From positions 1 through 55,633 of IMG/VR virus record IMGVR_UViG_3300043410_000581: a DNA stretch of 55,633 nucleotides. One strand, given 5' to 3'. The notes below the pieces were generated by a model that searched no databases, was not told the origin of the DNA, and saw nothing but the letters and a program-made list of their open reading frames with translations. Every line of letters begins with the position of its first letter. Position 1 is the stretch's first letter. Both the position numbers and the translations under genes were made by a program. Source of the DNA: a virus. Below, in pieces: positions 1 to 10,409 of this stretch.

Positions 1-27
1 CGTTATTCTCTTTTGCTGTATGTATCT

Positions 28-51: not shown

Positions 52-60
52 TTACAATAG

Positions 61-701: not shown

Positions 702-731
702 TATTTTTTCCTTTCGATTGGCTGTGTTTCT

Positions 732-755
732 ATTATAAGGGATACCTACGACATT
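732..755 (-). promoter_or_regulatory. Left-arm promoter P2
   Basis: AATGTC (755-750), 12 bp, TATAAT (737-732) on the minus strand. The box touches the TAA stop of the upstream gene (757-755). Serves the 160-aa gene. Confidence 0.85.
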
Positions 756-1018
756 TATTCGATGTCGTTGGCAATGCTTTCCAGTTCCTCAATGGTCTTC
801 ACCAGTTCAGCCTGAGCGTCTTCGGTGAGGGTAAGGCAAACAGTTCCAGAAACTGCCTGAGCAGAGATAGCCATAGCAAACTGAGCAAGGGCAGAGAGAA
901 ACTCGTCGCTGTCCACCTCGGTTCGCATAGCGTCAAGACCACCAGCCATCATAGCCACAAAGGGGTTGTCGCAAGCCTCGGTAGCAACCTGCTTCATTCC
1001 AAATGCGATGTCCAACAT
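755..1018 (-). CDS. Hypothetical protein, 87 aa
   Basis: An alanine-rich helical protein beginning MLDIAFGMKQVATEA and ending in an acidic helix (AELVKTIEELESIANDIE). The reading frame stays open upstream to 1069, but that extension is the translated promoter P3 and ribosome site. ATG at 1018 is chosen because GAAAGGAAAAT ends a few bases before it. The stop codon touches the -30 box of the next promoter. No family recognised. Confidence 0.8.
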   Translation of the reverse strand: MLDIAFGMKQVATEACDNPFVAMMAGGLDAMRTEVDSDEFLSALAQFAMAISAQAVSGTVCLTLTEDAQAELVKTIEELESIANDIE

Positions 1019-1046
1019 AATTTTCCTTTCGTTTGTTGATAGTTCT

Positions 1047-1070
1047 ATTATACAGGTGACCACTGACATT
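1047..1070 (-). promoter_or_regulatory. Left-arm promoter P3
   Basis: AATGTC (1070-1065), 12 bp, TATAAT (1052-1047), minus strand; serves the 87-aa gene. Confidence 0.85.
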
Positions 1071-1085
1071 ATAGGGATTTGTGGA

Positions 1086-1147
1086 GCGTTTCGTAAGCTT
1101 CGTAACCTGATCGTTACATTTGGGGGTCGGCTCCCCGAAGGGAGCAG
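1086..1147. other. Intergenic module E2 with GAGC hairpin
   Basis: Contains the inverted repeat GTAAC-N6-GTTAC near 1100-1120, GGGGGTCGGC (1122-1131) and a 6-bp hairpin GCTCCC-CGAA-GGGAGC at 1130-1145. Read on the minus strand the loop is UUCG closed by C-G, an unusually stable tetraloop. It directly follows the stop of the next gene and is a likely terminator, though it lacks a U tract. Confidence 0.6.
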
Positions 1148-1148
1148 G

Positions 1149-1640
1149 TTACCCTACTACCCCTGGGTCTAGTGTGGTTGCCCATTCCGCAAGGTATTCA
1201 TCAGGGCTAGGCAAATCATCTAAATCGTGTTCAAGAGTGTATCCGCCATAAGTAGAGATAAACTTTTTGGTTTGAAAGTTGAGGGTGTAAACTGCTTCAC
1301 AAAACAATTCGTCATTCTCAAAGTCGCTGGCATCAACTAGGAATAAATCGTTACTATAAGCAACATAGCCTAGAATGTCCGCACAGGTATCACGAGATAG
1401 AGTTGGATAAACTTCACTAACAGGCTGTTCACTAGCGGCTAGTAGTGAGTTGATGTTATCAATCTCTTTATCAGTTAGAAAGTATAGTTTAGGCAACTTA
1501 CTCTCAATAAGTCTGTGGTTCTCTGCGTGGTAGAGAGCAGTAACTCCCTGTCCGCTAGGGTATCCGTCCCATTGTCCGTATTGAGCAACCTTGACTACGC
1601 CATCTCGGTCAATTACCTTGGTTAGATTACGAGTTCCCAT
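1149..1640 (-). CDS. Conserved phage protein with MGTRNLT N-terminus, 163 aa
   Basis: The N-terminus MGTRNLTKVIDRDGVVKVAQ followed by YGQWDGYPSGQG matches a conserved uncharacterised family found in many phages of unrelated hosts; its biochemical role is not known to me. The C-terminal half carries FQTKKFISTYGGYTLEHDLDDLPSPDEYLAEWA. The start at 1640 follows a GAAAGGAAACACTA ribosome site and promoter P4. It is monocistronic and is followed at once by the E2 hairpin. Family match is from memory; a database search would settle it. Confidence 0.85.
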   Translation of the reverse strand: MGTRNLTKVIDRDGVVKVAQYGQWDGYPSGQGVTALYHAENHRLIESKLPKLYFLTDKEIDNINSLLAASEQPVSEVYPTLSRDTCADILGYVAYSNDLFLVDASDFENDELFCEAVYTLNFQTKKFISTYGGYTLEHDLDDLPSPDEYLAEWATTLDPGVVG

Positions 1641-1666
1641 TAGTGTTTCCTTTCGTTGATAGTCTA

Positions 1667-1690
1667 ATTATACTGGTAGGGTCAGACATT
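1667..1690 (-). promoter_or_regulatory. Left-arm promoter P4
   Basis: AATGTC (1690-1685), 12 bp, TATAAT (1672-1667), minus strand; serves the MGTRNLT gene. It begins one base past the stop of the 56-aa gene upstream. Confidence 0.85.
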
Positions 1691-1861
1691 TTACTCTACC
1701 GAAACTTCTAGCCATTCCCAAACATCACCATTGATAATGTCTTCATTAGCCATTTGTTTAGCATAGTCAATCATTTCATCTTCAGTCATGTCTTCAAACA
1801 ATTCTGCGTGGTCTTCTTCAGGGTAGTATTCAAATCTAAGACTAACAGTAATCTTTTCCAT
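1691..1861 (-). CDS. Hypothetical acidic protein, 56 aa
   Basis: Begins MEKITVSLRFEYYPEEDHAE and ends WEWLEVSVE. Third gene of a three-gene unit: its ATG overlaps the TAA of the 70-aa gene by one base (TAATG), so translation is probably coupled. Strongly acidic (many E and D), no cysteines, no membrane segment. A small acidic protein could be an inhibitor or a DNA mimic, but nothing in the sequence proves that. No family recognised. Confidence 0.75.
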   Translation of the reverse strand: MEKITVSLRFEYYPEEDHAELFEDMTEDEMIDYAKQMANEDIINGDVWEWLEVSVE

Positions 1862-2073
1862 TACTCATACTCACTTTCGATTTCGTTTACAAAGTCATCA
1901 TCACCATCAAGGATAGCGATAGCGTATTCCATCTTCATTGAATCTGGCAGGGAATCAAGGATATCCCATTGCTTATTGGTCAGGGCATCAGTATCAAAAG
2001 TAATGGTATCCTCACAGGCAGAGAACGAACCATCACCAGAGATGTAAGCCTTACGGCTGTGGAAATCATACAT
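1861..2073 (-). CDS. Hypothetical acidic protein, 70 aa
   Basis: Begins MYDFHSRKAYISGDGSFSAC and continues with an acidic helical half (NKQWDILDSLPDSMKMEYAIAILDGDDDFVNEIESEYE). Middle gene of the unit 2174-1691, joined by TAATG overlaps on both sides. The NKQWDILDSLPDSMK stretch looks like a small helical protein-binding motif. Function unknown. Confidence 0.78.
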   Translation of the reverse strand: MYDFHSRKAYISGDGSFSACEDTITFDTDALTNKQWDILDSLPDSMKMEYAIAILDGDDDFVNEIESEYE

Positions 2074-2174
2074 TAGTATCCTGCTTTCTCAAAAATGTCT
2101 AGTAGTTCATCTAGGGTTGATTCTGGTAGGGTGTCCAGAACATCTTGGTCAATGACATCAGCAAAGAGTTTCAT
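2073..2174 (-). CDS. Hypothetical microprotein, 33 aa
   Basis: Sequence begins MKLFADVIDQDVLDTLPEST and ends LLDIFEKAGY. First gene of the three-gene unit; it follows promoter P5 and a GAAAGGAAAACA ribosome site and its TAA overlaps the next ATG. The short length is supported by the perfect promoter, ribosome site and coupling signals. Predicted to be one or two acidic helices; function unknown. Confidence 0.72.
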   Translation of the reverse strand: MKLFADVIDQDVLDTLPESTLDELLDIFEKAGY

Positions 2175-2198
2175 TGTTTTCCTTTCGTTTATAGTTCC

Positions 2199-2222
2199 AT
2201 TATACATTAGGGGTCTGACATT
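2199..2222 (-). promoter_or_regulatory. Left-arm promoter P5
   Basis: AATGTC (2222-2217), 12 bp, TATAAT (2204-2199), minus strand; heads the 33-70-56 aa gene unit. Confidence 0.85.
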
Positions 2223-2225
2223 ATA

Positions 2226-2300
2226 GGGATTTGGGAAAGGTTTTTTAATATCGTAACCTGGTAGGCAGCTGGTGGGGTCGGCACCCCGAAGGGGTAGCCA
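2226..2300. other. Intergenic module E3
   Basis: GATTTGGGAAA, then ATCGTAACC (2250-2258), GGGGTCGGC (2274-2282) and a 5-bp hairpin ACCCC-GAA-GGGGT (2283-2295) just after the stop region of the GP88-like gene. Same order of parts as in E1, E2 and E4; probable terminator plus upstream regulatory sequence. Confidence 0.55.
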
Positions 2301-2305
2301 AAGGG

Positions 2306-3022
2306 CTACTTTTTACTAGCAGAGAACAGAATGTCATTCCTAGCAAAAACACACTGTGAGCAAGTAACGCAAGCACTACCCTTTTCAGTAATCATAGCAA
2401 TCTTGCGATTGTTTTCAGGGCAAGGGACAGCAGACTTTTCCTGTTGCTCGTTGAAGTCTGCCTTACCAGTAGCAAAATCCTTAGCAAGATAAGCAAGTTT
2501 TACGCCATAGATACGCTTCAATTCCCAAGCAAGAACCTTGTTAGCAGAATCAGCAGAGAAATACAGAGCAAGGTTAGGAATGTTTACCAAGATAGGCACA
2601 GCAAAGTCTGAACGAGTGTATGCCCAGAATTGAACATCAGGGTTTAGACGGATAACAAATGCCCAAGCCCTAGCATAGTCCTCACTAAAGAAGTCGCCAT
2701 CCCAGTGGATACGGAATAACTTTTCCGCATTACGCTTTTCGCAATCTGCCTTGAAGTCTTGAATCATCTCGTCAATCAGAGCAATCATTCCGAGAGTATC
2801 AGTAGCCAGTAGTTGCTCATAGTTGCTAACCAATACTTGACGAACACCCTTGAACACCTTTTCAAGTTTTCCAGCATAGCAGATAGTCTCACAGACAGAG
2901 GTAGCCCCAGGGCAGGAATAAGCCTTACCACTAGGCAAGCCAAAAGTGTTAGCGATAGAGGCTTGAGTGCCAGCCTTGTTTACAGCGTTAGCAACTTTAC
3001 GGTCTTTAGAGCGAGTGAGCAT
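2306..3022 (-). CDS. GP88-like cysteine-rich protein, 238 aa
   Basis: The N-terminal region has SLPSGK-type spacing followed by YSCPGATSVCETICYAGKLE (cysteines within residues about 36-48), and the C-terminus has CPENN and CVTCSQCVF, giving seven clustered cysteines that could bind a metal or Fe-S centre. This resembles the Gene product 88 (GP88) family of mycobacteriophages, a family without an established function. The central part (RIHWDGDFFSEDYARAWA) is well conserved in such proteins as I recall them. ATG at 3022 (MLTRSKDRK) is chosen; the open frame to 3082 is only promoter P6 and leader. Largest gene of the left arm; monocistronic. Confidence 0.75.
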   Translation of the reverse strand: MLTRSKDRKVANAVNKAGTQASIANTFGLPSGKAYSCPGATSVCETICYAGKLEKVFKGVRQVLVSNYEQLLATDTLGMIALIDEMIQDFKADCEKRNAEKLFRIHWDGDFFSEDYARAWAFVIRLNPDVQFWAYTRSDFAVPILVNIPNLALYFSADSANKVLAWELKRIYGVKLAYLAKDFATGKADFNEQQEKSAVPCPENNRKIAMITEKGSACVTCSQCVFARNDILFSASKK

Positions 3023-3047
3023 TTGGTTTCCTTTTCTTGATAATACA

Positions 3048-3071
3048 ATTATACACCTGACCACTGACATT
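3048..3071 (-). promoter_or_regulatory. Left-arm promoter P6
   Basis: AATGTC (3071-3066), 12 bp, TATAAT (3053-3048), minus strand; serves the GP88-like gene. Confidence 0.85.
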
Positions 3072-3091
3072 TTAGGGAACATCTTAAACGT

Positions 3092-3138
3092 GTCGTAAGT
3101 CGATCTTGCAGCTAGGGGGTCGGCTCCCCCTGTGGGGG
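3092..3138. other. Intergenic module E4
   Basis: Contains GTCGTAAGTCGATCTTGCAG, then GGGGGTCGGC and a hairpin CCCCC-TGT-GGGGG (3126-3138) that directly follows the stop of the 40-aa gene at 3143. Probable terminator without a U tract. Confidence 0.55.
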
Positions 3139-3142
3139 TAGA

Positions 3143-3265
3143 CTAGAGGAAGTCTATGATGTCACCATCAAATCTAGCGTCATCAAGATAGTCTTGCAAC
3201 TCAAGATAACTAATCTCTCCCTTGGCTGCTTGGTCAAACAATTCTTGGATGTATGCTTCGTCCAT
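3143..3265 (-). CDS. Hypothetical acidic microprotein, 40 aa
   Basis: Begins MDEAYIQELFDQAAKGEISY and ends DDARFDGDIIDFL. Its ATG overlaps the TGA of the 123-aa gene by one base (TGATG), so it is probably made by translational coupling from promoter P7. Helical and acidic; no family recognised. Confidence 0.72.
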   Translation of the reverse strand: MDEAYIQELFDQAAKGEISYLELQDYLDDARFDGDIIDFL

Positions 3266-3636
3266 CAGTCTTCCTCTTCCTCTAGAATTTCAAAGGTGAA
3301 CAACGCACCCATTTCGTCATGTGAACGGCGAACGACATTGAAAGTATTTTCTTCAGGGTCAAAGTCAAACTCAAGGCTGAAGTCACCATTCAAGACTAAC
3401 TTGTCAAGGATAGTTGCTGGAGTTGCCATTGCGTATCCTGAAACATGGTTCCAATTCATGTTGGTTCCGTTTATCTTGATAGGCTGAGTGTCATCAACAT
3501 TGTTCTTGGTCTGCCATTCACCAATTAGCCATGACACATCTTCTTTCTGCCATTCCCAGCAGTCGCCATAGCAGTTGAGTTCAACGCCATCTTCATCTTC
3601 TCCGCAAACACAGTTGCTTTCAATAATTGCTTTCAT
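3265..3636 (-). CDS. Hypothetical protein, 123 aa, N-terminal cysteine cluster
   Basis: Residues 1-27 contain four cysteines (CVC at 9-11, CYGDC at 22-26), a possible zinc site; the rest contains a tryptophan-rich helix (WEWQKEDVSWLIGEWQTKN) and a beta-rich acidic C-terminus. Start at 3636 follows GGAAAGGAAAACC and promoter P7. First gene of a two-gene unit. No family recognised. Confidence 0.8.
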   Translation of the reverse strand: MKAIIESNCVCGEDEDGVELNCYGDCWEWQKEDVSWLIGEWQTKNNVDDTQPIKINGTNMNWNHVSGYAMATPATILDKLVLNGDFSLEFDFDPEENTFNVVRRSHDEMGALFTFEILEEEED

Positions 3637-3658
3637 GGTTTTCCTTTCCTAGGGTTCA

Positions 3659-3682
3659 ATTATACAGGCAGGGTATGACATT
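3659..3682 (-). promoter_or_regulatory. Left-arm promoter P7
   Basis: AATGTC (3682-3677), 12 bp, TATAAT (3664-3659), minus strand. The box overlaps the stop codon (3683-3681) of the upstream basic gene. Confidence 0.85.
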
Positions 3683-3851
3683 ATAGGGATTCGTTGATAG
3701 CCTTGCGAATGTTGGCAGACCTAGTGCCTTTTCGGTGTTCAGGAACAACGATAGTGTGCTTGGTGAGCAATAGGTTTTTGAACAACTCAGCAGAGTGAGC
3801 CTTGCGAGTAGCCTCAGCAAGTTTGTTTAGTGGTTTCTTTCTTTTCTTCAT
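3681..3851 (-). CDS. Hypothetical basic protein, 56 aa, leaderless
   Basis: Begins MKKRKKPLNKLAEATRKAHS; lysine/arginine-rich, with a second basic patch (PEHRKGTRSANIRK), so nucleic-acid binding is plausible. Unlike its neighbours it has no GAAAGGAAA ribosome site: ATG at 3851 sits 6 bp after the -10 of promoter P8, so the mRNA is probably leaderless. An ATG further upstream (3869) lies across the promoter itself and is rejected. Confidence 0.7.
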   Translation of the reverse strand: MKKRKKPLNKLAEATRKAHSAELFKNLLLTKHTIVVPEHRKGTRSANIRKAINESL

Positions 3852-3857
3852 AGTCCT

Positions 3858-3881
3858 ATTATACATCAACCCTCCGACATT
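3858..3881 (-). promoter_or_regulatory. Left-arm promoter P8 (leaderless type)
   Basis: AATGTC (3881-3876), 12 bp, TATAAT (3863-3858), minus strand; only 6 bp separate the -10 from the ATG at 3851. Confidence 0.82.
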
Positions 3882-3884
3882 TAA

Positions 3885-3960
3885 CAGGGTTTTGGGAAAT
3901 ATTTTTTAAGGTTTTTAATGTCGATCTTGCCGAGAGCCGCCGACCCCCGAAGGGGGCTGA
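3885..3960. other. Intergenic module E5
   Basis: GGTTTTGGGAAAT, GTCGATCTTGCCG and a hairpin CCCCC-GAA-GGGGG at 3944-3956. The GCCGAC core is in the opposite orientation to E1-E4. The hairpin immediately follows the stop of the 38-aa gene at 3961. Confidence 0.5.
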
Positions 3961-4077
3961 TTAGCCTACTGACTTTGCTACTCGCTCAACCTGTTCTGGT
4001 GTTGCGATAGCAAAGAAAGCCTTAGCAAGAGTTTCGTAGTCAGCGATTTCCTCAAGTTTGCCAAATGAGATTTCCAT
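3961..4077 (-). CDS. Hypothetical microprotein, 38 aa
   Basis: Begins MEISFGKLEEIADYETLAKA and ends IATPEQVERVAKSVG. It lies 11 bp downstream of the 60-aa gene, and its ribosome site (GAAAGGAACACA) overlaps that gene's stop codon, so both are read from P9. Helical; function unknown. Confidence 0.7.
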   Translation of the reverse strand: MEISFGKLEEIADYETLAKAFFAIATPEQVERVAKSVG

Positions 4078-4088
4078 TGTGTTCCTTT

Positions 4089-4271
4089 CTAGGCGAAGCG
4101 TGGGTCAAGCAGGTCTGGGCGGAAGTGGGACAGCAGGGTGGCGTAGTCGCTAATCTGTTTCATACGAGGGTCAACCTCATCATCCTCAGTAGAGGCACGA
4201 CCACCTTTCAGGACAGCCTCCATCTCGTCCATTAGGCGAGAGCATTCAACTGACATTGCTTCGAAGTCCAT
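4089..4271 (-). CDS. Hypothetical acidic protein, 60 aa
   Basis: Begins MDFEAMSVECSRLMDEMEAV. Start at 4271 is set by GAAAGGAAACCCA and promoter P9; the open frame continuing to 4319 is the promoter. Residues 20-35 include a GGRASTEDDEVDP linker, then a helical C-terminus with RPDLLDPRFA. First gene of a two-gene unit with the 38-aa gene. No family recognised. Confidence 0.75.
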   Translation of the reverse strand: MDFEAMSVECSRLMDEMEAVLKGGRASTEDDEVDPRMKQISDYATLLSHFRPDLLDPRFA

Positions 4272-4296
4272 TGGGTTTCCTTTCGTTGATAAGACT

Positions 4297-4320
4297 ATTA
4301 TACAACGAGCCACTGACATT
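4297..4320 (-). promoter_or_regulatory. Left-arm promoter P9
   Basis: AATGTC (4320-4315), 12 bp, TATAAT (4302-4297), minus strand; serves the 60- and 38-aa genes. Confidence 0.85.
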
Positions 4321-4326
4321 TTACAA

Positions 4327-4438
4327 GAGGATTTGGGGAAAATCGGGATCTTTTTTAATGCTTTCGTAACTAGATCCAGAGCTGGGCGGTCGGCTCCCTG
4401 TGGATAACTTGGGGGGTAGCTGTGGATAACTACCCCCC
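4327..4438. repeat. Intergenic module E6 with paired DnaA boxes
   Basis: GATTTGGGGAAAATCG, TTTCGTAACTAGATCC and GGTCGGCTCC precede two perfect DnaA boxes (TGTGGATAA on plus, TTATCCACA on minus) at 4399-4407 and 4421-4429, 22 bp apart. The second box fills the loop of a 9-bp hairpin, GGGGGGTAG (4411-4419) with CTACCCCCC (4430-4438). The hairpin follows the stop of the 75-aa gene. Confidence 0.8.
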
Positions 4439-4451
4439 CTCACCATACCTG

Positions 4452-4679
4452 TTAGGCTACTACATACTTAGTAGCAACCTCACTAGGGCGAGCAATGACC
4501 TGCGACCATTCCTCTGGCTTTCCGTCCTCAAGACGAACAGCGTAGCCAACATAGGCTTCGTTAGGCTGGATACCCTGACCAAGACGAGCCTTGATACCAA
4601 CAGGGGCATCAACCTGCTCAACAACCTTGCCAACATACTTGTTGTCGTGGGTCTTGATAGTCATTCCGATAAGGTTCAT
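4452..4679 (-). CDS. Hypothetical protein, 75 aa, small beta-barrel-like
   Basis: Begins MNLIGMTIKTHDNKYVGKVV and has alternating hydrophobic strands (VGYAVRLEDGKPEEWSQVIARPSEV), resembling a small beta-barrel such as an SH3-like or PRC-barrel-like fold; this is an impression from pattern only. Start at 4679 follows AAAGAAAAGAGAAATAA and the degenerate promoter P10. Downstream is the hairpin and DnaA-box pair. Function unknown. Confidence 0.75.
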   Translation of the reverse strand: MNLIGMTIKTHDNKYVGKVVEQVDAPVGIKARLGQGIQPNEAYVGYAVRLEDGKPEEWSQVIARPSEVATKYVVA

Positions 4680-4694
4680 TTATTTCTCTTTTCT

Positions 4695-4718
4695 TTATTA
4701 GGGGTTGATACTGACTTA
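4695..4718 (-). promoter_or_regulatory. Left-arm promoter P10 (degenerate)
   Basis: TAAGTC (4718-4713), 12 bp, TAATAA (4700-4695), minus strand. Weaker match to both boxes but the same spacing; serves the 75-aa gene. Confidence 0.55.
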
Positions 4719-4859
4719 TTTGCTAGGGGTTTTATTTGCTCTTGCGAGGCTCACACCTGCTAGGCTCATTCAGTATCTCTGTTTTGTTTATATTTATATT
4801 TTACAGGCTAGTTAGTGATTTGTCAAGGCGACACGCCGTAGTTTCCAAAACTTTTTTAT
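4719..4859. other. Intergenic stretch with TACGGCGTGTC repeat
   Basis: 141 bp without a credible gene. It contains the repeat GACACGCCGTA (4830-4840), also found at 5237-5247 and 7987-7997, and an AT-rich tail. A 17-codon frame near 4717-4769 has no ribosome site. Confidence 0.5.
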
Positions 4860-5003
4860 TTATTTTTGGTGTTCTTCAGTAAAGGTGAAGTATCCCTCAC
4901 GCTTGCTAGGGACTTTGTGAAAACGCTTAAGCTTTCCATACAGATTAGGGGCAAGCACACCAAGACCATTACACTCTGGACAAGGGGTTAGATTATCAAA
5001 CAT
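4860..5003 (-). CDS. Small zinc-finger-like protein, 47 aa
   Basis: Begins MFDNLTPCPECNGLGVLAPN: the CPECNGLG segment is a DnaJ-type CxxCxGxG half-site. Only one such pair is present, so a zinc site would need a second molecule or histidines (HKVP, EEHQK). The rest is basic (YGKLKRFHKVPSKREG). Start at 5003 is set by AAAAGGAAAGAA and P11; the longer open frame to 5051 is the promoter. Function unknown. Confidence 0.75.
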   Translation of the reverse strand: MFDNLTPCPECNGLGVLAPNLYGKLKRFHKVPSKREGYFTFTEEHQK

Positions 5004-5028
5004 TTCTTTCCTTTTCTTTTCTAAGTCT

Positions 5029-5052
5029 ATTATAGCGTGACCCTCTGACATT
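5029..5052 (-). promoter_or_regulatory. Left-arm promoter P11
   Basis: AATGTC (5052-5047), 12 bp, TATAAT (5034-5029), minus strand. The box touches the stop of the upstream 40-aa gene. Confidence 0.85.
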
Positions 5053-5174
5053 TAACCTTTGACTTTTGCGTCTGGGTGGTCTTTGAGAAACTTTGTCAAG
5101 TCAAGAATGTGGATTGCCGAAACAACCTTAGAGCCGTTTTCTAGTGAGTATTCGAATAGGGTGTACTTGCTCAT
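5052..5174 (-). CDS. Hypothetical protein, 40 aa (duplicate pair A)
   Basis: Begins MSKYTLFEYSLENGSKVVSA and continues IHILDLTKFLKDHPDAKVKG. It is a clear paralogue of the 39-aa gene at 5765-5884 (about 30 of 39 positions identical), with four genes of other families between them. Start at 5174 follows AAAAGGAAAACACAA and P12. Predicted as two strands and a helix ending in HPDAKVK. Function unknown. Confidence 0.8.
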   Translation of the reverse strand: MSKYTLFEYSLENGSKVVSAIHILDLTKFLKDHPDAKVKG

Positions 5175-5204
5175 TTGTGTTTTCCTTTTCTTCTTTATGT
5201 ATTC

Positions 5205-5228
5205 ATTATAGCAAGGGGGTACGACATT
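5205..5228 (-). promoter_or_regulatory. Left-arm promoter P12
   Basis: AATGTC (5228-5223), 12 bp, TATAAT (5210-5205), minus strand; serves the 40-aa gene of pair A. Module E7 with a LexA box lies just upstream. Confidence 0.85.
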
Positions 5229-5236
5229 TTAGGTAC

Positions 5237-5347
5237 GACACGCCGTAAATCTGGAAAGTTTTTTCTTATCGTAACCAATTTGTTATAATCGAACATTTGT
5301 TCGAAAACGCCGACCCCTGTGGATAACTTTCGATCAGCTGTGGATAA
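5237..5347. repeat. Intergenic module E7: LexA box and paired DnaA boxes
   Basis: Order on plus: GACACGCCGTA repeat (5237-5247), TCGTAACC, plus-strand TGTTATAAT (5281-5289), a perfect LexA/SOS palindrome TCGAACATTTGTTCGA (5289-5304), GCCGACCCC (5309-5317), DnaA boxes TGTGGATAA at 5318-5326 and 5339-5347, 21 bp apart. The second DnaA box directly abuts the stop codon of the 41-aa gene. Confidence 0.85.
5289..5304. promoter_or_regulatory. LexA (SOS) box 1
   Basis: TCGAACATTTGTTCGA is a perfect match to the actinobacterial/Gram-positive LexA consensus TCGAAC-N4-GTTCGA. It abuts a plus-strand extended -10 (TGTTATAAT, 5281-5289) and lies about 60 bp upstream of minus-strand promoter P12. Binding by host LexA is inferred from the sequence only. 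Confidence 0.8.
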
Positions 5348-5473
5348 CTAGAAGGGTATGTTATCTCGCTCTGCCTGGCGGTATCCAATTCCCTTAGCAA
5401 CTTTATAAGTAGTAAAAACAAGAATGATGTCCACAAGCAAGTTGAAGCCATTGTAGAAAATAATTTCGTTCAT
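5348..5473 (-). CDS. Small membrane protein, 41 aa
   Basis: Begins MNEIIFYNGFNLLVDIILVF with one predicted membrane helix at residues 10-25, then a basic/polar tail (KVAKGIGYRQAERDNIPF). Third gene of the unit 5714-5348; its ATG overlaps the TAA of the zinc-ribbon gene by one base. The stop is directly followed by a DnaA box. Function unknown. Confidence 0.75.
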   Translation of the reverse strand: MNEIIFYNGFNLLVDIILVFTTYKVAKGIGYRQAERDNIPF

Positions 5474-5625
5474 TAGTTAGTCTCCTTTAGGTATTCCAAA
5501 AAGTCATAGGTTTCACTTGCTTCGGTTAGGGTCATTAGTCCCTTATAGTCCTGGCATTCAGGGCATACCATTACGCTAGGGTTGTAGATGTTTTCACAAA
5601 ATACACAAACTCGTTCTTCGTTCAT
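5473..5625 (-). CDS. Small zinc-ribbon protein, 50 aa
   Basis: Begins MNEERVCVFCENIYNPSVMV and continues CPECQDYKGLMTL: two CxxC pairs (C7/C10 and C21/C24) separated by ten residues, a typical rubredoxin-knuckle zinc ribbon. The C-terminal half is an acidic helix. Coupled by TAATG overlaps to the genes on both sides. A protein- or nucleic-acid-binding adaptor is plausible. Confidence 0.8.
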   Translation of the reverse strand: MNEERVCVFCENIYNPSVMVCPECQDYKGLMTLTEASETYDFLEYLKETN

Positions 5626-5714
5626 TATTTACCTTCCTTCTTTTCGGCTTCCAATTTGATGGCGTTCTCACGAACAATTTGAGCCATCATTGCTTTTAGT
5701 TGCTTTTCGTTCAT
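5625..5714 (-). CDS. Hypothetical microprotein, 29 aa
   Basis: Begins MNEKQLKAMMAQIVRENAIK and ends LEAEKKEGK; a single charged amphipathic helix. First gene of a three-gene unit, preceded by AAAAGGAAAATCAA and promoter P13, and its TAA overlaps the next ATG. The signals support it as real despite the length. Confidence 0.7.
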   Translation of the reverse strand: MNEKQLKAMMAQIVRENAIKLEAEKKEGK

Positions 5715-5740
5715 TTGATTTTCCTTTTCTATCTAAGATT

Positions 5741-5764
5741 AGTTTAGCACTACCCTACGACATT
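5741..5764 (-). promoter_or_regulatory. Left-arm promoter P13 (TGC-TAAACT type)
   Basis: AATGTC (5764-5759), 12 bp ending in TGC, then TAAACT (5746-5741), minus strand. The weak -10 hexamer is preceded by an extended -10 TGC. Confidence 0.82.
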
Positions 5765-5884
5765 TTACTGCTTGACTTTTGCGTCAGGGTGTTCACGAAG
5801 AAACTTGCCAAGGTCAAGAATGTGAATGGCAGAAACAACCTGCTTGCCATTGAAGTCGTATTCGAATAGTGTATATTTGCTCAT
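5765..5884 (-). CDS. Hypothetical protein, 39 aa (duplicate pair A)
   Basis: Begins MSKYTLFEYDFNGKQVVSAI and continues HILDLGKFLREHPDAKVKQ; paralogue of the 40-aa gene at 5052-5174. It has its own promoter P14 and AAAAGGAAAATCAA ribosome site. The two copies share protein sequence better than flanking DNA, so the duplication is not recent. Function unknown. Confidence 0.8.
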   Translation of the reverse strand: MSKYTLFEYDFNGKQVVSAIHILDLGKFLREHPDAKVKQ

Positions 5885-5910
5885 TTGATTTTCCTTTTCT
5901 TTATAAATCT

Positions 5911-5934
5911 AGTTTAGCATAGGGGTCAGACATT
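5911..5934 (-). promoter_or_regulatory. Left-arm promoter P14 (TGC-TAAACT type)
   Basis: AATGTC (5934-5929), 12 bp ending in TGC, TAAACT (5916-5911), minus strand. Confidence 0.82.
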
Positions 5935-6060
5935 TTAGCAAGTGTGAGTTGCTATTGCCTGTTCCAATTCAGCGATAGTTTTGCCCATCTCAAACTTTCC
6001 ACAAGTCTCGCAATCGGTTGACTCATAGAATCTGTCGTTCCAGTGGTTTGTGACTTTCAT
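5935..6060 (-). CDS. Hypothetical protein, 41 aa, CxxC motif
   Basis: Begins MKVTNHWNDRFYESTDCETC and ends AIATHTC. Cysteines at 17 and 20 plus HTC at the C-terminus could form a C2HC zinc site. Start at 6060 follows GAAAGGAAAAAG. The upstream region offers both AATGTA-N12-TATAGA (P15) and a TTGACA-like hexamer. Function unknown. Confidence 0.75.
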   Translation of the reverse strand: MKVTNHWNDRFYESTDCETCGKFEMGKTIAELEQAIATHTC

Positions 6061-6074
6061 CTTTTTCCTTTCTA

Positions 6075-6098
6075 TCTATAACTATCTAATCATACATT
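6075..6098 (-). promoter_or_regulatory. Left-arm promoter P15 (variant)
   Basis: AATGTA (6098-6093), 12 bp, TATAGA (6080-6075), minus strand. A TTGACA lies just upstream and could pair with TTAGAT at 17 bp instead, so the exact promoter is ambiguous. Confidence 0.5.
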
Positions 6099-6120
6099 AT
6101 TGGGTTTGTCAATAGCAAAA

Positions 6121-6223
6121 CACCTTTTGTTACCATTTCGTTATAATTGGGGATCGATCTTGTGCTACGTAAATCGAACAAATGTTCGAAGGGGTCGGCT
6201 CCTGTGGATAACTCTGTGGATAA
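6121..6223. repeat. Intergenic module E8: LexA box and paired DnaA boxes
   Basis: Order on plus: TTGTTACC, TTATAATTGG, GGATCGATCTTG, LexA palindrome TCGAACAAATGTTCGA (6174-6189), GGGGTCGGCTCC, DnaA boxes TGTGGATAA at 6203-6211 and 6215-6223, 12 bp apart. Same parts as E7 with the GTCGGC core inverted. The region lies between the 41-aa and 40-aa genes and has no credible gene. Confidence 0.85.
6174..6189. promoter_or_regulatory. LexA (SOS) box 2
   Basis: TCGAACAAATGTTCGA is again a perfect TCGAAC-N4-GTTCGA palindrome. A plus-strand TATAAT lies 26 bp to its left (6142-6147); minus-strand promoter P15 lies about 75 bp to its left. Confidence 0.8.
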
Positions 6224-6247
6224 GTCAGAGTCGATCCGCCAGGGTAG

Positions 6248-6370
6248 TTACTTAGCCAACTTTTTACTAAGGGCAAGCAATTCCTCAAATTCAGTCATAG
6301 ACATAAACTCATCTCCCTTAGCAATTCGCATAAGTTCGTTGTATCGAATTTTCATTTCGTTCTTGCTCAT
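6248..6370 (-). CDS. Hypothetical protein, 40 aa (duplicate pair B)
   Basis: Begins MSKNEMKIRYNELMRIAKGD and continues EFMSMTEFEELLALSKKLAK. Paralogue of the 40-aa gene at 7433-7555 (33 of 40 positions identical). Two predicted helices. Preceded by AAAGGAAAATAAA and promoter P16. Function unknown. Confidence 0.8.
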   Translation of the reverse strand: MSKNEMKIRYNELMRIAKGDEFMSMTEFEELLALSKKLAK

Positions 6371-6381
6371 TTTATTTTCCT

Positions 6382-6435
6382 TTACTGATTAGCCAGAATG
6401 ATTACTAAGATTATGATACCAAAGACCACAGACAT
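6382..6435 (-). CDS. Possible hydrophobic micro-ORF, 17 aa
   Basis: A frame encoding MSVVFGIIILVIILANQ starts directly after the TAA of the 66-aa gene (GAATAAATG) and ends just before the ribosome site of the 40-aa gene. AGGAA lies upstream at a usable distance. However, its ATG is the ATG of promoter box P16, so it may be an accident. A similar tiny membrane frame occurs at 7239-7295. Confidence 0.2.
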   Translation of the reverse strand: MSVVFGIIILVIILANQ

Positions 6436-6436
6436 T
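6413..6436 (-). promoter_or_regulatory. Left-arm promoter P16
   Basis: AATGTC (6436-6431), 12 bp, TATCAT (6418-6413), minus strand; serves the 40-aa gene of pair B. Confidence 0.7.
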
Positions 6437-6636
6437 TATTCCTGCTCATTTCCCCAAAGGCGAACAATGAGAACAACGGAAAAGATGATGAAGCCAAATC
6501 CACCAATTAGGAACGGAAACATTCCAAGACCCTCAAGACCAGTCTTGCCAATTTCATCAAGACCAGACTTAGCAATGAAGAAGAAGATGGTGGCGAGGGT
6601 AGTGATGATGATGTTACGCTTGATAGTTACAGACAT
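6436..6636 (-). CDS. Membrane protein, 66 aa, two helices
   Basis: Begins MSVTIKRNIIITTLATIFFF. Two membrane helices are predicted, at residues about 8-21 and 41-58, the second followed by RLWGNEQE. Start at 6636 follows AAAAGGAAAATCTA and promoter P17; the long open frame to 6840 is read-through of the neighbouring gene's antisense. Two-helix topology and size would fit a holin, but nothing else supports that and no lysin gene is nearby. Confidence 0.75.
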   Translation of the reverse strand: MSVTIKRNIIITTLATIFFFIAKSGLDEIGKTGLEGLGMFPFLIGGFGFIIFSVVLIVRLWGNEQE

Positions 6637-6664
6637 TAGATTTTCCTTTTCTTTTGATAGTTTG

Positions 6665-6688
6665 ATTTTAGCAGATACCACTGACATT
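6665..6688 (-). promoter_or_regulatory. Left-arm promoter P17 (TGC-TAAAAT type)
   Basis: AATGTC (6688-6683), 12 bp ending in TGC, TAAAAT (6670-6665), minus strand. Confidence 0.8.
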
Positions 6689-6898
6689 TTAGGCAGACAT
6701 TCCAAGTTCTGCCCTAGTCTTTTCACCATTCCAAAGTTGAGCAACGAATACGCCAACCTGTTCATCAGTGTATTCAGTCTGGCTAGCAAGCAGGGTAGCG
6801 TAGTATTCTTCATCACGCTTGATAGCAGAAGCGTCATCACTGAATGGGGCAGTCCAAGTGTCTAGTTTTGCTTCGATTAGTTTTGGTAGAATGTTCAT
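6689..6898 (-). CDS. Hypothetical protein, 69 aa
   Basis: Begins MNILPKLIEAKLDTWTAPFS; a mostly helical, acidic protein with EYTDEQVGVFVAQLWNGEKT near the C-terminus, resembling an EF-hand-free helix-loop-helix. Start at 6898 follows AAAAGGAAAACAAA and promoter P18. Its stop is one base before the P17 box. No family recognised. Confidence 0.8.
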   Translation of the reverse strand: MNILPKLIEAKLDTWTAPFSDDASAIKRDEEYYATLLASQTEYTDEQVGVFVAQLWNGEKTRAELGMSA

Positions 6899-6924
6899 TT
6901 TGTTTTCCTTTTCTCTATACCTAT

Positions 6925-6948
6925 ATTATAAGCACAGCCTAAGACATT
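6925..6948 (-). promoter_or_regulatory. Left-arm promoter P18 (with TTGACA)
   Basis: AATGTC (6948-6943), 12 bp, TATAAT (6930-6925), minus strand. Uniquely, TTGACA lies immediately upstream of the box, 18 bp from the -10, so this site also fits a canonical sigma70 promoter. Confidence 0.82.
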
Positions 6949-6967
6949 TGTCAAGTATATTTAGAAA

Positions 6968-7061
6968 AATAATTATAACGAATTTGGGGAAAATCGTTAT
7001 CAAACTTAACTTGACAAAAGCTTGAAAAGGTGCCGACCCCTGTGGATAAGTCTGTGGATAA
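6968..7061. repeat. Intergenic module E9 with paired DnaA boxes
   Basis: Order on plus: ATTATAACG, AATTTGGGGAAAATCGTTAT, GCCGACCCC (7032-7040), DnaA boxes TGTGGATAA at 7041-7049 and 7053-7061, 12 bp apart. The last box abuts the stop codon of the 35-aa gene, exactly as in E7. No LexA box here. Confidence 0.8.
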
Positions 7062-7169
7062 CTACTTACCCCATTCCTTTATCATCTCAACCTGGAGACC
7101 TAGCAATTCTTCTGCAGACATTGTCTCAATATCTTTAGAACCATTAGCCGAAATAATTTGAATTCCCAT
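7062..7169 (-). CDS. Hypothetical microprotein, 35 aa
   Basis: Begins MGIQIISANGSKDIETMSAE and ends LLGLQVEMIKEWGK. Start at 7169 follows GAAAGGTAATAAA and promoter P19; stop is followed by a DnaA box. Predicted strand plus helix. Function unknown. Confidence 0.7.
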   Translation of the reverse strand: MGIQIISANGSKDIETMSAEELLGLQVEMIKEWGK

Positions 7170-7193
7170 TTTATTACCTTTCGTTATATAAGT

Positions 7194-7217
7194 ACTTTAG
7201 CATTACCCTCTGACAGT
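7194..7217 (-). promoter_or_regulatory. Left-arm promoter P19 (variant)
   Basis: ACTGTC (7217-7212), 12 bp ending in TGC, TAAAGT (7199-7194), minus strand. Confidence 0.65.
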
Positions 7218-7238
7218 GGAGGGTATCGATCGGGGTAG

Positions 7239-7295
7239 TTATTGGATAAACATCCAAACAGCCAACAGACAAAACATTACAGCAACAACCTCCAT
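7239..7295 (-). CDS. Possible membrane microprotein, 18 aa
   Basis: MEVVAVMFCLLAVWMFIQ is a single hydrophobic helix. Its ATG overlaps the TAA of the 45-aa gene by one base (TAATG), the coupling arrangement used throughout this arm, and the frame fills an otherwise empty gap. No independent ribosome site. Single-helix peptides of this size are known to regulate membrane proteins, but the call rests on coupling and hydrophobicity only. Confidence 0.4.
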   Translation of the reverse strand: MEVVAVMFCLLAVWMFIQ

Positions 7296-7432
7296 TAGAA
7301 CACCAGTCCCCAACCCATGATTAGACCCTTTTCATAGAGACCTTTGTAGAAATTACGAACAGCGTCTTTATGCTCAGGGTCAAAAGAATAGTCAATTTGC
7401 TTACCGTCTAGAGTGATGATTTCAATAGTCAT
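7295..7432 (-). CDS. Hypothetical protein, 45 aa
   Basis: Begins MTIEIITLDGKQIDYSFDPE and ends YEKGLIMGWGLVF. Its ATG directly follows the TAA of the upstream pair-B gene (TAAATG), so both belong to one unit from promoter P20. Predicted two strands and a helix. Function unknown. Confidence 0.72.
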   Translation of the reverse strand: MTIEIITLDGKQIDYSFDPEHKDAVRNFYKGLYEKGLIMGWGLVF

Positions 7433-7555
7433 TTACTTACCCAACTTCTTTGATAGTGCCAATAGTTCTTCGAACTCGGTCATGCTCATGTAGTCATCGC
7501 CCTTAGCGATACGCATTAGTTCGTTATAGCGAGACTTCATTTCTAGAGTAGTCAT
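7433..7555 (-). CDS. Hypothetical protein, 40 aa (duplicate pair B)
   Basis: Begins MTTLEMKSRYNELMRIAKGD and continues DYMSMTEFEELLALSKKLGK; 33 of 40 residues match the gene at 6248-6370. Differences sit at the N-terminus. Follows AAAAGGAAAACA and promoter P20. Function unknown; retention of two copies with separate promoters suggests a dose or timing difference. Confidence 0.8.
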   Translation of the reverse strand: MTTLEMKSRYNELMRIAKGDDYMSMTEFEELLALSKKLGK

Positions 7556-7579
7556 TGTTTTCCTTTTCTTTATATGATT

Positions 7580-7603
7580 AGTTTAGCATGGGGGTATGAC
7601 ATT
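7580..7603 (-). promoter_or_regulatory. Left-arm promoter P20 (TGC-TAAACT type)
   Basis: AATGTC (7603-7598), 12 bp ending in TGC, TAAACT (7585-7580), minus strand. Confidence 0.82.
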
Positions 7604-7606
7604 GAA

Positions 7607-7780
7607 CTACATCTTAGCGTAGCCAATGCTGTATCCGTATTTCCATCCTGCTATTGAGGGGTGGCTAACAATAGCCTTTACCTCTGCCTCAGTAGTAGCA
7701 GAGAACTTGTGAACAGAGAACGAAACACCATCCTCACGAGAGCCTCGCTTGGTGATGATTACTGTGTTGAATTCGAACAT
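7607..7780 (-). CDS. Hypothetical protein, 57 aa
   Basis: Begins MFEFNTVIITKRGSREDGVS and ends HPSIAGWKYGYSIGYAKM. Mixed alpha/beta pattern (strand, strand, helix AEVKAIVSHP, strand). Start at 7780 follows GAAAGGAAAAATAA and P21. No family recognised. Confidence 0.75.
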   Translation of the reverse strand: MFEFNTVIITKRGSREDGVSFSVHKFSATTEAEVKAIVSHPSIAGWKYGYSIGYAKM

Positions 7781-7805
7781 TTATTTTTCCTTTCTTTATG
7801 TATTT

Positions 7806-7829
7806 AGTTTAGCACTAGGGGCAGACATT
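7806..7829 (-). promoter_or_regulatory. Left-arm promoter P21 (TGC-TAAACT type)
   Basis: AATGTC (7829-7824), 12 bp ending in TGC, TAAACT (7811-7806), minus strand. Confidence 0.82.
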
Positions 7830-7831
7830 TA

Positions 7832-7924
7832 TTACTTTTTTAGCAACTTAGCAATGTCAGTGCTAAAGTTTGCCCACACTACTACTACTACTGATACTAC
7901 TACAATTACTACTACTTCAAACAT
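7832..7924 (-). CDS. Valine-run membrane microprotein, 30 aa
   Basis: Begins MFEVVVIVVVSVVVVVWANF and ends STDIAKLLKK: a membrane helix made almost only of valine, encoded largely by repeated GTA codons (trinucleotide tract in 7878-7919), with a basic tail. Start at 7924 follows AAAAGGAAAAGAAA and P22. The promoter, ribosome site and basic tail argue that it is a gene and not just a microsatellite. Confidence 0.65.
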   Translation of the reverse strand: MFEVVVIVVVSVVVVVWANFSTDIAKLLKK

Positions 7925-7951
7925 TTTCTTTTCCTTTTCCTTTATGTATCT

Positions 7952-7975
7952 ATTATAAGCACAAGGGCAGACATT
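7952..7975 (-). promoter_or_regulatory. Left-arm promoter P22
   Basis: AATGTC (7975-7970), 12 bp, TATAAT (7957-7952), minus strand; last promoter of the array, serving the valine-rich microprotein. Confidence 0.85.
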
Positions 7976-8123
7976 ACGCAAGTCAAGACACGCCGTATTT
8001 GATAACAAATTGATAACGTTAGGGGGTGTGTAGTGTCCGCACTATTTATTTGGTTTTGTTGTTTTAAATGTACGCATCGTACATCTATTCAAAATATTCA
8101 GATTTTGTCAAACTCAAATTTTT
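7976..8123. other. Intergenic stretch E10
   Basis: 148 bp without a gene. It holds GACACGCCGTA (7987-7997), the direct repeat TTGATAAC, a TAGTG/CACTA hairpin (8031-8044) and the inverted repeat TGTACG-CAT-CGTACA (8069-8083). On the minus strand the last one is followed by TTTAAAA and could end the DUF3307 operon transcript. Confidence 0.5.
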
Positions 8124-8459
8124 TCAGATTTTTGCCAGGTACAAAATTAACAAATATGTCAACGCATGAAGAAGCTGATCTGCACCAAAGTAAATCCAAT
8201 ACATACGATCTGCCTGTGTGAGATTCTTTGATAGCTTTGTCTTGATGTAATCCACATTGTGATGAATAGCAAAATCTAAGCAAGCGAGGGTAGCTGCAAG
8301 AGACAAAGGCATAAACCACATAAGAACAGTAAGGGTAAATACCATATGAATAAGAGAATGGTCTAGATAAAGGTATTTTTGCTTATGTTTAGCCATATAG
8401 TTTGTCTGAAATACAAAATCTGCGAGGTAATGCTTAACAAAAAGTAACATTAACATCAT
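8124..8459 (-). CDS. DUF3307-like integral membrane protein, 111 aa
   Basis: Features of the DUF3307 family are visible: an N-terminal helix with HYLADFVFQTNYMAKHK, then DHSLIHMVFTL, a middle helix with DFAIHHNVDYIKTKL, and YFGADQLLHALTYLLILYLA near the end. Three to four membrane helices carry conserved histidines and aspartates (H29/H33-like, HHNVDYIK, DQLLH). DUF3307 has no established function. It is the last of four genes read from the promoter near 8916-8944; its ATG overlaps the upstream TGA by four bases (ATGA). It shows an AT-richer composition than the array genes. Confidence 0.82.
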   Translation of the reverse strand: MMLMLLFVKHYLADFVFQTNYMAKHKQKYLYLDHSLIHMVFTLTVLMWFMPLSLAATLACLDFAIHHNVDYIKTKLSKNLTQADRMYWIYFGADQLLHALTYLLILYLAKI

Positions 8460-8593
8460 TTTTCATCCTTACTGTCCATCTGCTCTTTGATCAGCTTCTC
8501 CGTCTGCTTCTTGACCTTAGCTCTAGGATTAGCCATAAGCACACAGCACTTACAAAACTGCTTTTCTAGGTGGGTAACACCAAATTGTTTCAT
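8456..8593 (-). CDS. Hypothetical basic protein, 45 aa, CxCC motif
   Basis: Begins MKQFGVTHLEKQFCKCCVLM, with FCKCC near residues 13-17, then a lysine-rich amphipathic helix (PRAKVKKQTEKLIKEQMDSK). ATG at 8593 is preferred over 8596 because of AGGAGAATG spacing and because its A overlaps the upstream TGA. Cytoplasmic; possibly metal-binding. Function unknown. Confidence 0.68.
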   Translation of the reverse strand: MKQFGVTHLEKQFCKCCVLMANPRAKVKKQTEKLIKEQMDSKDEK

Positions 8594-8691
8594 CATTCTC
8601 CTAGTAAATATTTGACGGTAGCCATAAAAATAGCCATAAATGTTGGAATAGCAACAACAGCAAGCAATAAAACAACTATTTTACGGACCAT
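8593..8691 (-). CDS. Single-helix membrane protein, 32 aa
   Basis: Begins MVRKIVVLLLAVVAIPTFMA and ends IFMATVKYLLGE. One or two short hydrophobic helices with a proline break. Start at 8691 overlaps the upstream gene by 11 bp; its TGA overlaps the next ATG. Function unknown; small membrane proteins dominate this operon. Confidence 0.68.
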   Translation of the reverse strand: MVRKIVVLLLAVVAIPTFMAIFMATVKYLLGE

Positions 8692-8893
8692 GCTTATGCC
8701 ATTCTTCATCATCTCCACAAATAGCACAGACGCTATCGTTGTATGCATCGAAATCATTTGGTTCACCTACGTCTGAAAACTTGTTAACAGTCCATTTAAT
8801 GACAAAACCAACAGTAACAACAACAATAATTGCTGGGATTACGTAAATTAACGTAAAGAAAAAGATTAAAAGTAAAAAGAATACAAATTCCAT
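8681..8893 (-). CDS. Membrane protein with C-terminal zinc-binding motif, 70 aa
   Basis: Begins MEFVFFLLLIFFFTLIYVIP with a long hydrophobic region to residue about 33, then a cytoplasmic tail containing CAICGDDEEWHKHGP, which has two cysteines and two histidines suited to a zinc site. ATG at 8893 is preferred because AGGAGAG lies just upstream. First gene of the four-gene operon. Confidence 0.75.
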   Translation of the reverse strand: MEFVFFLLLIFFFTLIYVIPAIIVVVTVGFVIKWTVNKFSDVGEPNDFDAYNDSVCAICGDDEEWHKHGP

Positions 8894-8915
8894 GTCTCTC
8901 CTATGGTAGGTTTTA

Positions 8916-8944
8916 AGTATAGCATAAAATTTTGGGGTACACAA
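8916..8944 (-). promoter_or_regulatory. Sigma70-like promoter of the membrane-protein operon
   Basis: On the minus strand: TTGTGT (8944-8939), 17 bp, TATACT (8921-8916), with TGC before the -10. It differs from the AATGTC promoters and is paired with an AGGAGAG ribosome site, so this operon is probably controlled separately. Confidence 0.65.
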
Positions 8945-9120
8945 GAGCGAAGCTCTCTTGATGAACTTATAAGCAAAACACCCATTAGCCTATAAAGAAA
9001 CTATTTTAGTATAACAAAACCCTATATTTGCTTATATGTTCATTTTAGACCATAGTAGAGTTCGTCGGATATAGTTTAAATCGCTTCTAGGGGCATCTGA
9101 GGGCTTCCTGGAAGGTGTTT

Positions 9121-9164
9121 TGTAACCGATCGTACACATTAGAAAATGTAACCGAACGTACACA
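9121..9164. repeat. 18-bp direct repeat pair TGTAACCGAWCGTACACA
   Basis: Copies at 9121-9138 and 9147-9164 differ at one base (T/A at position 10) and are offset by 26 bp. They resemble the GTAACCTGATCGTTACA element of module E2. Likely tandem binding sites for a regulator. Confidence 0.75.
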
Positions 9165-9214
9165 AAGTTAAAGCAGAACATATTCGTCATTAAAGCCTGT
9201 AATGGAGGATATCT

Positions 9215-9265
9215 TATGCATTACACTGCAATGTTTTATATCTGTTTATTGCATTAGACTGCAAT
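9215..9265. repeat. Two dyad operators ATTGCA-N6-TGCAAT
   Basis: ATTGCATTAGACTGCAAT (9248-9265) is a perfect 6-bp inverted repeat. The first copy, with TATGCA-TTACAC-TGCAAT ending at 9232, has one mismatch. The copies are 33 bp apart, about three helical turns. Confidence 0.7.
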
Positions 9266-9392
9266 ATTTATCCATATGGCTACGTTAGTAGCATGTTTGG
9301 ATGTGGGGTTCTCTATATCACGCCGACCTCTTTACCGCCGAGTTTTTACCGCCGTGCTTTATAACAGAAATGTAACAACTTAAAAAATAATG

Positions 9393-10028: not shown

Positions 10029-10409
10029 ATGGCAGCTACATATGGTGCAAATCCTACTAACATTCAATGGACAGTCGTCCGTGGTGATACCGCCAAACTT
10101 CGTATTGAGTTTCTTGAAAGCGATGAGACTACAGCACAGGACACATCTACTTGGGTTTATGCTGCCAGCACATTTGATGTGAAAAGCAATACATCTAGCG
10201 AACTCCAAACTGTAGCTGGCGATGGGTATGTAGACATTATTGCTTCTCCAGAATTAACAGCAACATGGGGAGCCACAAGAACTAGCACTACAGTAGCAGA
10301 ACTATCTTTTGACCTACAGGTCACTATTGATGCAGAAACAGTGTGGACTCCGATTATTGGAAAGATTGCGGTACTACCAGATGTTACCGTTAATCCAATA
10401 GTTCCGTAA
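10029..10409 (+). CDS. Fibre-base/baseplate-like beta protein, 126 aa
   Basis: Begins [20 protein letters not shown]; the [15 protein letters not shown] pattern followed by D-T-S-T-W and alternating strands resembles the immunoglobulin-like N-terminal domain of BppU-type baseplate/fibre proteins. The whole protein is beta-rich with no cysteines. It overlaps the collagen-like fibre gene by one base (TAATG), so it is probably the fibre's attachment or companion domain made as a separate chain. Leaderless or nearly so. Family assignment is tentative. Confidence 0.65.

Follow-up and report, generated by a model that had tools for sequence, protein, structure and literature searches.

The small-gene array and its LexA-type and DnaA boxes

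The window, meaning the whole stretch of 55,633 bases analysed here, is an IMG/VR virus contig that opens with an array of small minus-strand genes. Contig L083, identical to the window, extends the array by a further ~5.9 kb to the left. The features on which the following analysis draws are listed by position, all of them on the minus strand:

1-7980, minus strand: array of small genes, most with a promoter of their own
4399-4429, minus strand: two DnaA boxes spaced by 22 bp; a ggggggtag/ctacccccc hairpin has the second of them between its arms
5052-5174, minus strand: 40-aa gene, MSKYTLFEYSLENGSKVVSAIHILDLTKFLKDHPDAKVKG, downstream of LexA-type box 1
5205-5210, minus strand: TATAAT, the -10 box of the promoter that follows composite 1
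5223-5228, minus strand: AATGTC element of this promoter, with the -10 box 12 nt downstream
5271-5287, minus strand: tandem GTWAC-type box, TATAACAAATTGGTTAC, a GlnR/MtrA-like direct repeat with 11-bp pitch, 1 nt from LexA-type box 1
5271-5304, minus strand: candidate composite operator of 34 bp (LexA-type box, 1 nt, tandem activator-type box), with 23 distinct examples in viral contigs
5289-5304, minus strand: LexA-type box 1, perfect; TCGAACATTTGTTCGA as shown, TCGAACAAATGTTCGA on the gene strand
5318-5326 and 5339-5347, minus strand: DnaA-box pair beside LexA-type box 1, 21 bp apart
5935-6060, minus strand: 41-aa gene, MKVTNHWNDRFYESTDCETCGKFEMGKTIAELEQAIATHTC, downstream of LexA-type box 2
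6129-6145, minus strand: tandem GTWAC-type box, TATAACGAAATGGTAAC, 28 nt from LexA-type box 2
6174-6189, minus strand: LexA-type box 2, perfect; TCGAACAAATGTTCGA as shown, TCGAACATTTGTTCGA on the gene strand
6203-6211 and 6215-6223, minus strand: DnaA-box pair beside LexA-type box 2, 12 bp apart
7041-7061, minus strand: DnaA-box pair, 12 bp apart

Both LexA-type boxes are intergenic and lie in control regions of the array; their first bases precede the start codons (ATG) of the 40-aa and 41-aa genes by 130 nt (box 1) and 129 nt (box 2), respectively. The two perfect 16-mers of the original prediction were recovered at 5289-5304 and 6174-6189, and no other perfect TCGAAC-N4-GTTCGA site occurs in the window. 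Sites with at most two mismatches number five, against 0.90 expected, a count reached in none of 100 shuffles. The shorter core GAAC-N4-GTTC by itself is not significant in the window (2 against 0.70 expected), and the strength of the observation consequently rests on the full 16-bp site. Both boxes fit perfectly the LexA ChIP consensus of Streptomyces venezuelae, tCGAAC-N4-GNNCGa (PMC9380542). LexA targets in that species were taken from -200 to +100 of the start codon, with box positions extending to -199 (PMC9380542), and the boxes at -130 and -129 fall within this range. A divergent plus-strand promoter with TATAAT at 5284-5289 was considered and rejected, having no suitable -35 and not being kept in relatives.

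The boxes had further been placed in modules with DnaA-box pairs, and one pair does adjoin each of them (5318/5339 and 6203/6215). Perfect DnaA boxes (TTATCCACA) number eight in the window, in four pairs at 4399-7061, against 0.67 expected and with 0 of 100 shuffles reaching this count. Compared with a replication origin, where a compact cluster accompanies an AT-rich unwinding region, these pairs are scattered over four intergenic regions in 2.7 kb. The spacings of 12 or 21-22 bp correspond to one or two helix turns and are recurrent in the intergenic regions of the array; paired boxes also occur in related contigs (L084, L085, L093, L095, L096 and others). The strong hairpin with a DnaA box between its arms is found at 4413-4440.

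With regard to the host, the DnaB-like helicase is ~40% identical to those of Streptomyces phages such as Evy and Jay2Jay, and the array encodes GP88, a protein with homologues almost solely in phages of Mycobacterium and Streptomyces. Two related large genomes have the GP88 region inside repeats of 12.2 and 12.4 kb, with a copy at each end. An actinobacterium is consequently the very likely host, and the array probably represents a terminal, early-expressed region holding early or takeover genes. A search of bacterial genomes with the helicase gave as its sole match a distant one in an archaeal MAG. The Streptomyces phages of the Jay2Jay/Evy kind share with the window this level of helicase identity, and their GP88 homologue is found inside 12-kb terminal repeats; however, their terminal regions are without perfect LexA boxes and without the AATGTC promoter, which was not seen in any of the Streptomyces phage relatives, and their GC content is 53-54% compared with ~41% for the window, AT-rich for such a phage. 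None of ten array proteins searched against PHROGs gave a match. Paralogous proteins of 39-40 aa are encoded at 5052-5174 and 5765-5884 (SKYTLFEY..VVSAIHILDL..FL..HPDAKVK); they are kept in other arrays and belong to no known family.

Composition and recurrence of the 34-bp element

The AATGTC element occurs exactly 12 nt upstream of a TATAAT-like -10 box in 148 pairs in eight arrays (window 1-8000 on the minus strand, L084, L085, L086, L087, L090, L091 and L110). By its layout this combination appears to be a phage-type promoter with the element near -30, a position also occupied by the MotA box of T4 middle promoters.

The second component is the tandem GTWAC box. Repeats of this motif in the arrays form 31 pairs at exactly 11 bp, compared with 0-6 at other spacings; at site 1, ATAAC replaces the first GTAAC. 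GlnR and MtrA are OmpR-family regulators of actinobacteria, and the GTWAC-N6-GTWAC repeats have the form of their sites, the two names denoting here a type of site. The GlnR box of S. venezuelae reads GTnAC-n6-GTnAC (PMC10704036) and the MtrA direct repeat GtnAcC-n5-GTnAcn (PMC13189361). Tandem box and AATGTC element are mostly 38, 48 or 59 nt apart, with R = 0.87 at a period of 10.5 bp; other, apparently reversed copies cluster at 30-31, 41-42 and 51-52 nt. Such one-helix-turn steps are the arrangement needed by an activator that contacts RNA polymerase.

The main point, absent from the original prediction, is the fixed geometry between the two boxes. A LexA box with at most one mismatch lies exactly 1 nt from the tandem box in 7 of 68 cases, whereas 60 other offsets around the same 68 boxes yielded one LexA match at up to three mismatches. 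Six of these seven composites were fetched independently of the arrangement; the seventh (L269) came from a pattern that required part of it. Distances to the promoter of 47-48 and of 57-58 both occur, one helix turn apart, and over this step the LexA box and the tandem box shift jointly. Mirror scans of the viral collection gave the same picture. With the tandem box and the right LexA half fixed, the left half was present with at most one mismatch in 17 of 38 contigs against ~0.2 expected, and with the tandem box and the left half fixed, the right half was present at the same threshold in 14 of 15 contigs against 0.07 expected. Some of the scanned contigs are near copies of each other, and these counts are therefore not all independent; the scans used exact patterns and so missed degenerate sites. 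The 23 distinct composites pool the collection scans with the array examples.

The composite recurs in several phage lineages, related as well as unrelated, many of them without the AATGTC promoter. In one family it starts inside a stop codon, that of a gene judged RusA-like by eye, and several composites elsewhere carry TAGAAC, which uses the stop codon, or GTACGA, each one mismatch from the ideal. Several of the non-AATGTC composites are followed at 47-48 nt by a weak -10-like hexamer, and the distance from composite to -10 is 49-50 nt in three arrays and 60 nt in the window; the similarity of this apparent spacing across other lineages and arrays is suggestive only. A blast search of isolated-phage and plasmid records with the composite returned none at 80% coverage. 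Matches in Arthrobacter phage Qui and a Gordonia phage were rejected as chance, lying within coding sequence or covering half of the element only.

The LexA-type box also recurs when it plays no part in the sampling. Arrays of relatives were fetched through the unrelated protein GP88, with LexA disregarded, and contained three perfect boxes where 0.0 were expected (none in any of 60 shuffles) and eight with at most one mismatch against 0.4 expected (shuffle maximum 3). Among perfect 6-4-6 palindromes in these arrays TCGAAC is the most frequent 6-nt arm. A box within one mismatch is present in 6 of 14 arrays, the window counted; near-matches in L112/L123 and at some positions outside the arrays, apparently in coding sequence, were left out of the operator count. 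The box centres vary among phages (ATTT, AAAT, ACTT, AAAC and others) and site 1 lies outside every stretch that can be aligned with a non-identical relative, which argues against simple recent descent of one stretch. The association with the downstream gene is partial. Orthologues of the 40-aa gene have a LexA box at most 120 nt upstream in L085 and L110 and lack one in L086 and L087, so that the box goes with the activator site and not with a particular gene. 

Two further sequence contexts were observed around the boxes. In the first, the LexA box stands between copies of ATGAGCCTAGCAAATAAG, which are short ORF-like repeats, in four arrays (L110 at 7082, L224 at 13443, L193 at 525 and L171 at 2071), and part of this repeat is also found in the window near 4719-4775. 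In the second, seen in three phages where LexA and tandem boxes are not adjacent, the LexA box is followed by TTTACGTAGC (window 6146-6173, L084 6370-6400 and L090 4690).

Candidate binders and regulatory models

Searches for a LexA DNA-binding domain, an S24 peptidase and an OmpR-type DNA-binding domain found none in 18-19 related contigs, which are mostly incomplete and three of which exceed 100 kb, and the controls matched as expected. Host LexA and a host response regulator are consequently the likely binders. A tyrosine integrase (PF00589) was likewise not found in 19 relatives, and prophage-type LexA control was rejected on the lack of integrase, LexA and S24 proteins in these relatives; the phage may still be temperate through plasmid-like lysogeny. 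A RecA-like protein, of relevance to LexA cleavage, is encoded in 11 of the 19 related contigs (L084, L085, L090, L095 and others), namely every contig of at least 70 kb.

On balance, we consider it somewhat probable that host LexA blocks a phage promoter driven by a host response regulator until SOS cleavage. Both palindromes would then be operators for host LexA within small-gene control regions. At site 1 the LexA box would form one half of a rigid composite; the other half would be a direct repeat recognised by a host activator of the OmpR family (GlnR/MtrA kind), on a helix face from which the activator could touch promoter-bound RNA polymerase. Host LexA on its box, 1 nt off, would mask or obstruct this repeat and so hold transcription from the promoter down. 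For the Bacillus LexA dimer, protection of 18-20 bp is expected around a site of 14 bp (PMC4551915), and coverage of this extent at 1 nt would reach the neighbouring activator box. Upon damage to, or degradation of, host or phage DNA, RecA (that of the host or the phage RecA-like protein) would trigger cleavage of LexA, the activator would bind and the small gene would be expressed. Replication may be a further input, through the DnaA pairs on the far side. Site 2 may act less directly, as its two boxes are 28 nt apart, without the 1-nt geometry, and a direct steric effect is less likely there.

The analysis shows that the sites exist and are enriched, that their geometry is fixed and phased with the helix, that they recur in several lineages, and that no recognisable LexA- or OmpR-type protein is encoded in the relatives searched. 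The simplest model, exclusion by LexA until SOS, goes further: we infer host LexA and a GlnR/MtrA-type regulator as binders, repression by exclusion of the activator, and the event that acts as trigger during infection. The original reading of the palindromes as LexA operators is well supported at the level of sequence (the S. venezuelae consensus, the recurrence in relatives and the conservation of sequence rather than of a hairpin), and the proposal that phage genes sense host DNA damage fits the anatomy, with boxes 129-130 nt upstream and relatives that encode RecA-like proteins without LexA. Counting against the model, box 1 lies ~90 nt upstream of the expected transcription start, an unusual position for a repressor box unless it blocks an activator; moreover, the box is absent in 8 of 14 arrays, site 2 is without the 1-nt join, and one-mismatch TAGAAC/GTACGA variants occur.

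The same rigid 1-nt spacing would suit protein-protein contact as well as exclusion, and the LexA box leaves the promoter itself free, lying farther upstream than the activator site. LexA and its neighbour might therefore co-operate, with LexA stabilising the activator so that the genes are on in healthy cells and drop upon SOS. We regard this as unlikely. LexA is known mainly as a repressor, and co-activation by LexA on an OmpR-type box was not found in the literature searched. Still, a LexA box in S. venezuelae can accompany lower expression after damage, 78 of 175 LexA-linked units being down after mitomycin C (PMC9380542), and LexA could thus be a co-activator. Of similarly low probability is a phage-encoded regulator, instead of host LexA, recognising the palindrome or the whole 34-bp element. 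The presence of the composite in several phage lineages, and in none of the isolated-phage and plasmid records at 80% coverage, speaks for such a protein, which may have gone unrecognised in the incomplete relatives; however, the half-sites equal known host sites, and the domain searches described above recovered no LexA-type, S24 or OmpR-type protein in 18 relatives. Exclusion of a host activator by host LexA remains our preferred reading over both.

The original prediction also suggested that the sites might titrate LexA and thereby trigger host SOS. In its wider form, the phage boxes would be decoys that soak up LexA (SOS up) and DnaA (host replication stopped), for which we see a low probability. 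The eight DnaA and two LexA boxes within 2.7 kb are in keeping with such a function, and the homologous region is present in both 12-kb terminal repeats of related isolates, by which the copies would be doubled. Yet the two sites of the window, or two to four, face a host regulon of hundreds (498 ChIP peaks in S. venezuelae; PMC9380542), and decoys have no need for promoter phasing or a fixed activator-box distance, such that the 1-nt geometry is left unexplained. An RNA hairpin, e.g. a processing or terminator element, is very improbable. The palindrome can form a 6-bp stem, and L110 has a box in a 5' leader; however, most boxes are upstream of promoters, there is no Rfam match, and one-mismatch variants break the pairing, with 0 of 16 two-mismatch sites compensated, which favours recognition as DNA. 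The hairpin reading was rejected on the missing compensating changes and Rfam match. Chance palindromes, to which only the non-significant GAAC-N4-GTTC core would point, can practically be dismissed, as the full sites, the relatives and the fixed geometry are all above chance and the offset and mirror scans refute the notion statistically.

Known systems and wider significance

Control of phages by host LexA (mostly temperate ones, e.g. GIL01) and by host response regulators (CtrA, PhoB) is already known. In the Bacillus thuringiensis phage GIL01 the P1 promoter is repressed by host LexA with gp7; GIL01 and the window both carry, in a promoter region, a CGAAC-N4-GTTCG-type box for host LexA, and DNA damage, the signal in GIL01, is the signal proposed here (PMC4551915). 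However, GIL01 is temperate and its LexA sites, downstream of the start, maintain lysogeny (PMC4551915), whereas no integrase was found in relatives of the window, and the box, instead of occupying the promoter core, directly adjoins an activator-type box ahead of small-gene promoters. Sites of a host master response regulator are likewise packed into control regions of alphaproteobacterial phages, having evolved in several lineages, where CtrA sites are associated with 'lytic deferment', albeit with another host phylum and regulator, no LexA partner and no DnaA-site skew found (PMC9437464). Cyanophage Pho boxes bound by host PhoB similarly place lytic phage genes under a host two-component regulator, but concern a nutrient response with one regulator, and LexA or DnaA sites are not described there (PMC10976474). 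At the E. coli uvrB promoter DnaA and LexA jointly repress, and both types of box are found in one control region, as here; in that case the gene is bacterial, the boxes overlap and no OmpR-type box is described (PMC6015884). Actinobacterial GlnR/MtrA sites match the phage tandem boxes in repeat sequence and 11-bp pitch, although the known sites are in host genes and a LexA neighbour at 1 nt is not reported there (PMC10704036, PMC13189361). A LexA/GlnR-MtrA composite in phages was not encountered in the open-access literature searched.

It is quite possible, if short of probable, that the 34-bp LexA/response-regulator composite is a regulatory device common to many uncultivated actinophages, which together with the DnaA pairs would read host damage, signalling and replication state jointly and so time the takeover genes. 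The findings suggest that some genes of these phages are placed under host regulators of stress and signalling. Beyond the borrowing of a single regulator, what is new is a rigid two-site composite with a 1-nt join in viruses whose promoters otherwise differ. If true, it would amount to a two-input switch linking phage expression to SOS and a two-component-type regulator. The composite provides an exact DNA element for tests in laboratory actinobacteria and a signature for SOS-responsive phages in metagenomes.

Two other features of the stretch were observed alongside the operators. GGTCGGC/GCCGACC and CGACACGCCG are repeated in most intergenic regions of the array (window 109-9328) and also in relatives. 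The plus-strand genes open with a 783-aa protein (10409-12760, plus strand) that contains many collagen-like Gly-X-Y repeats.
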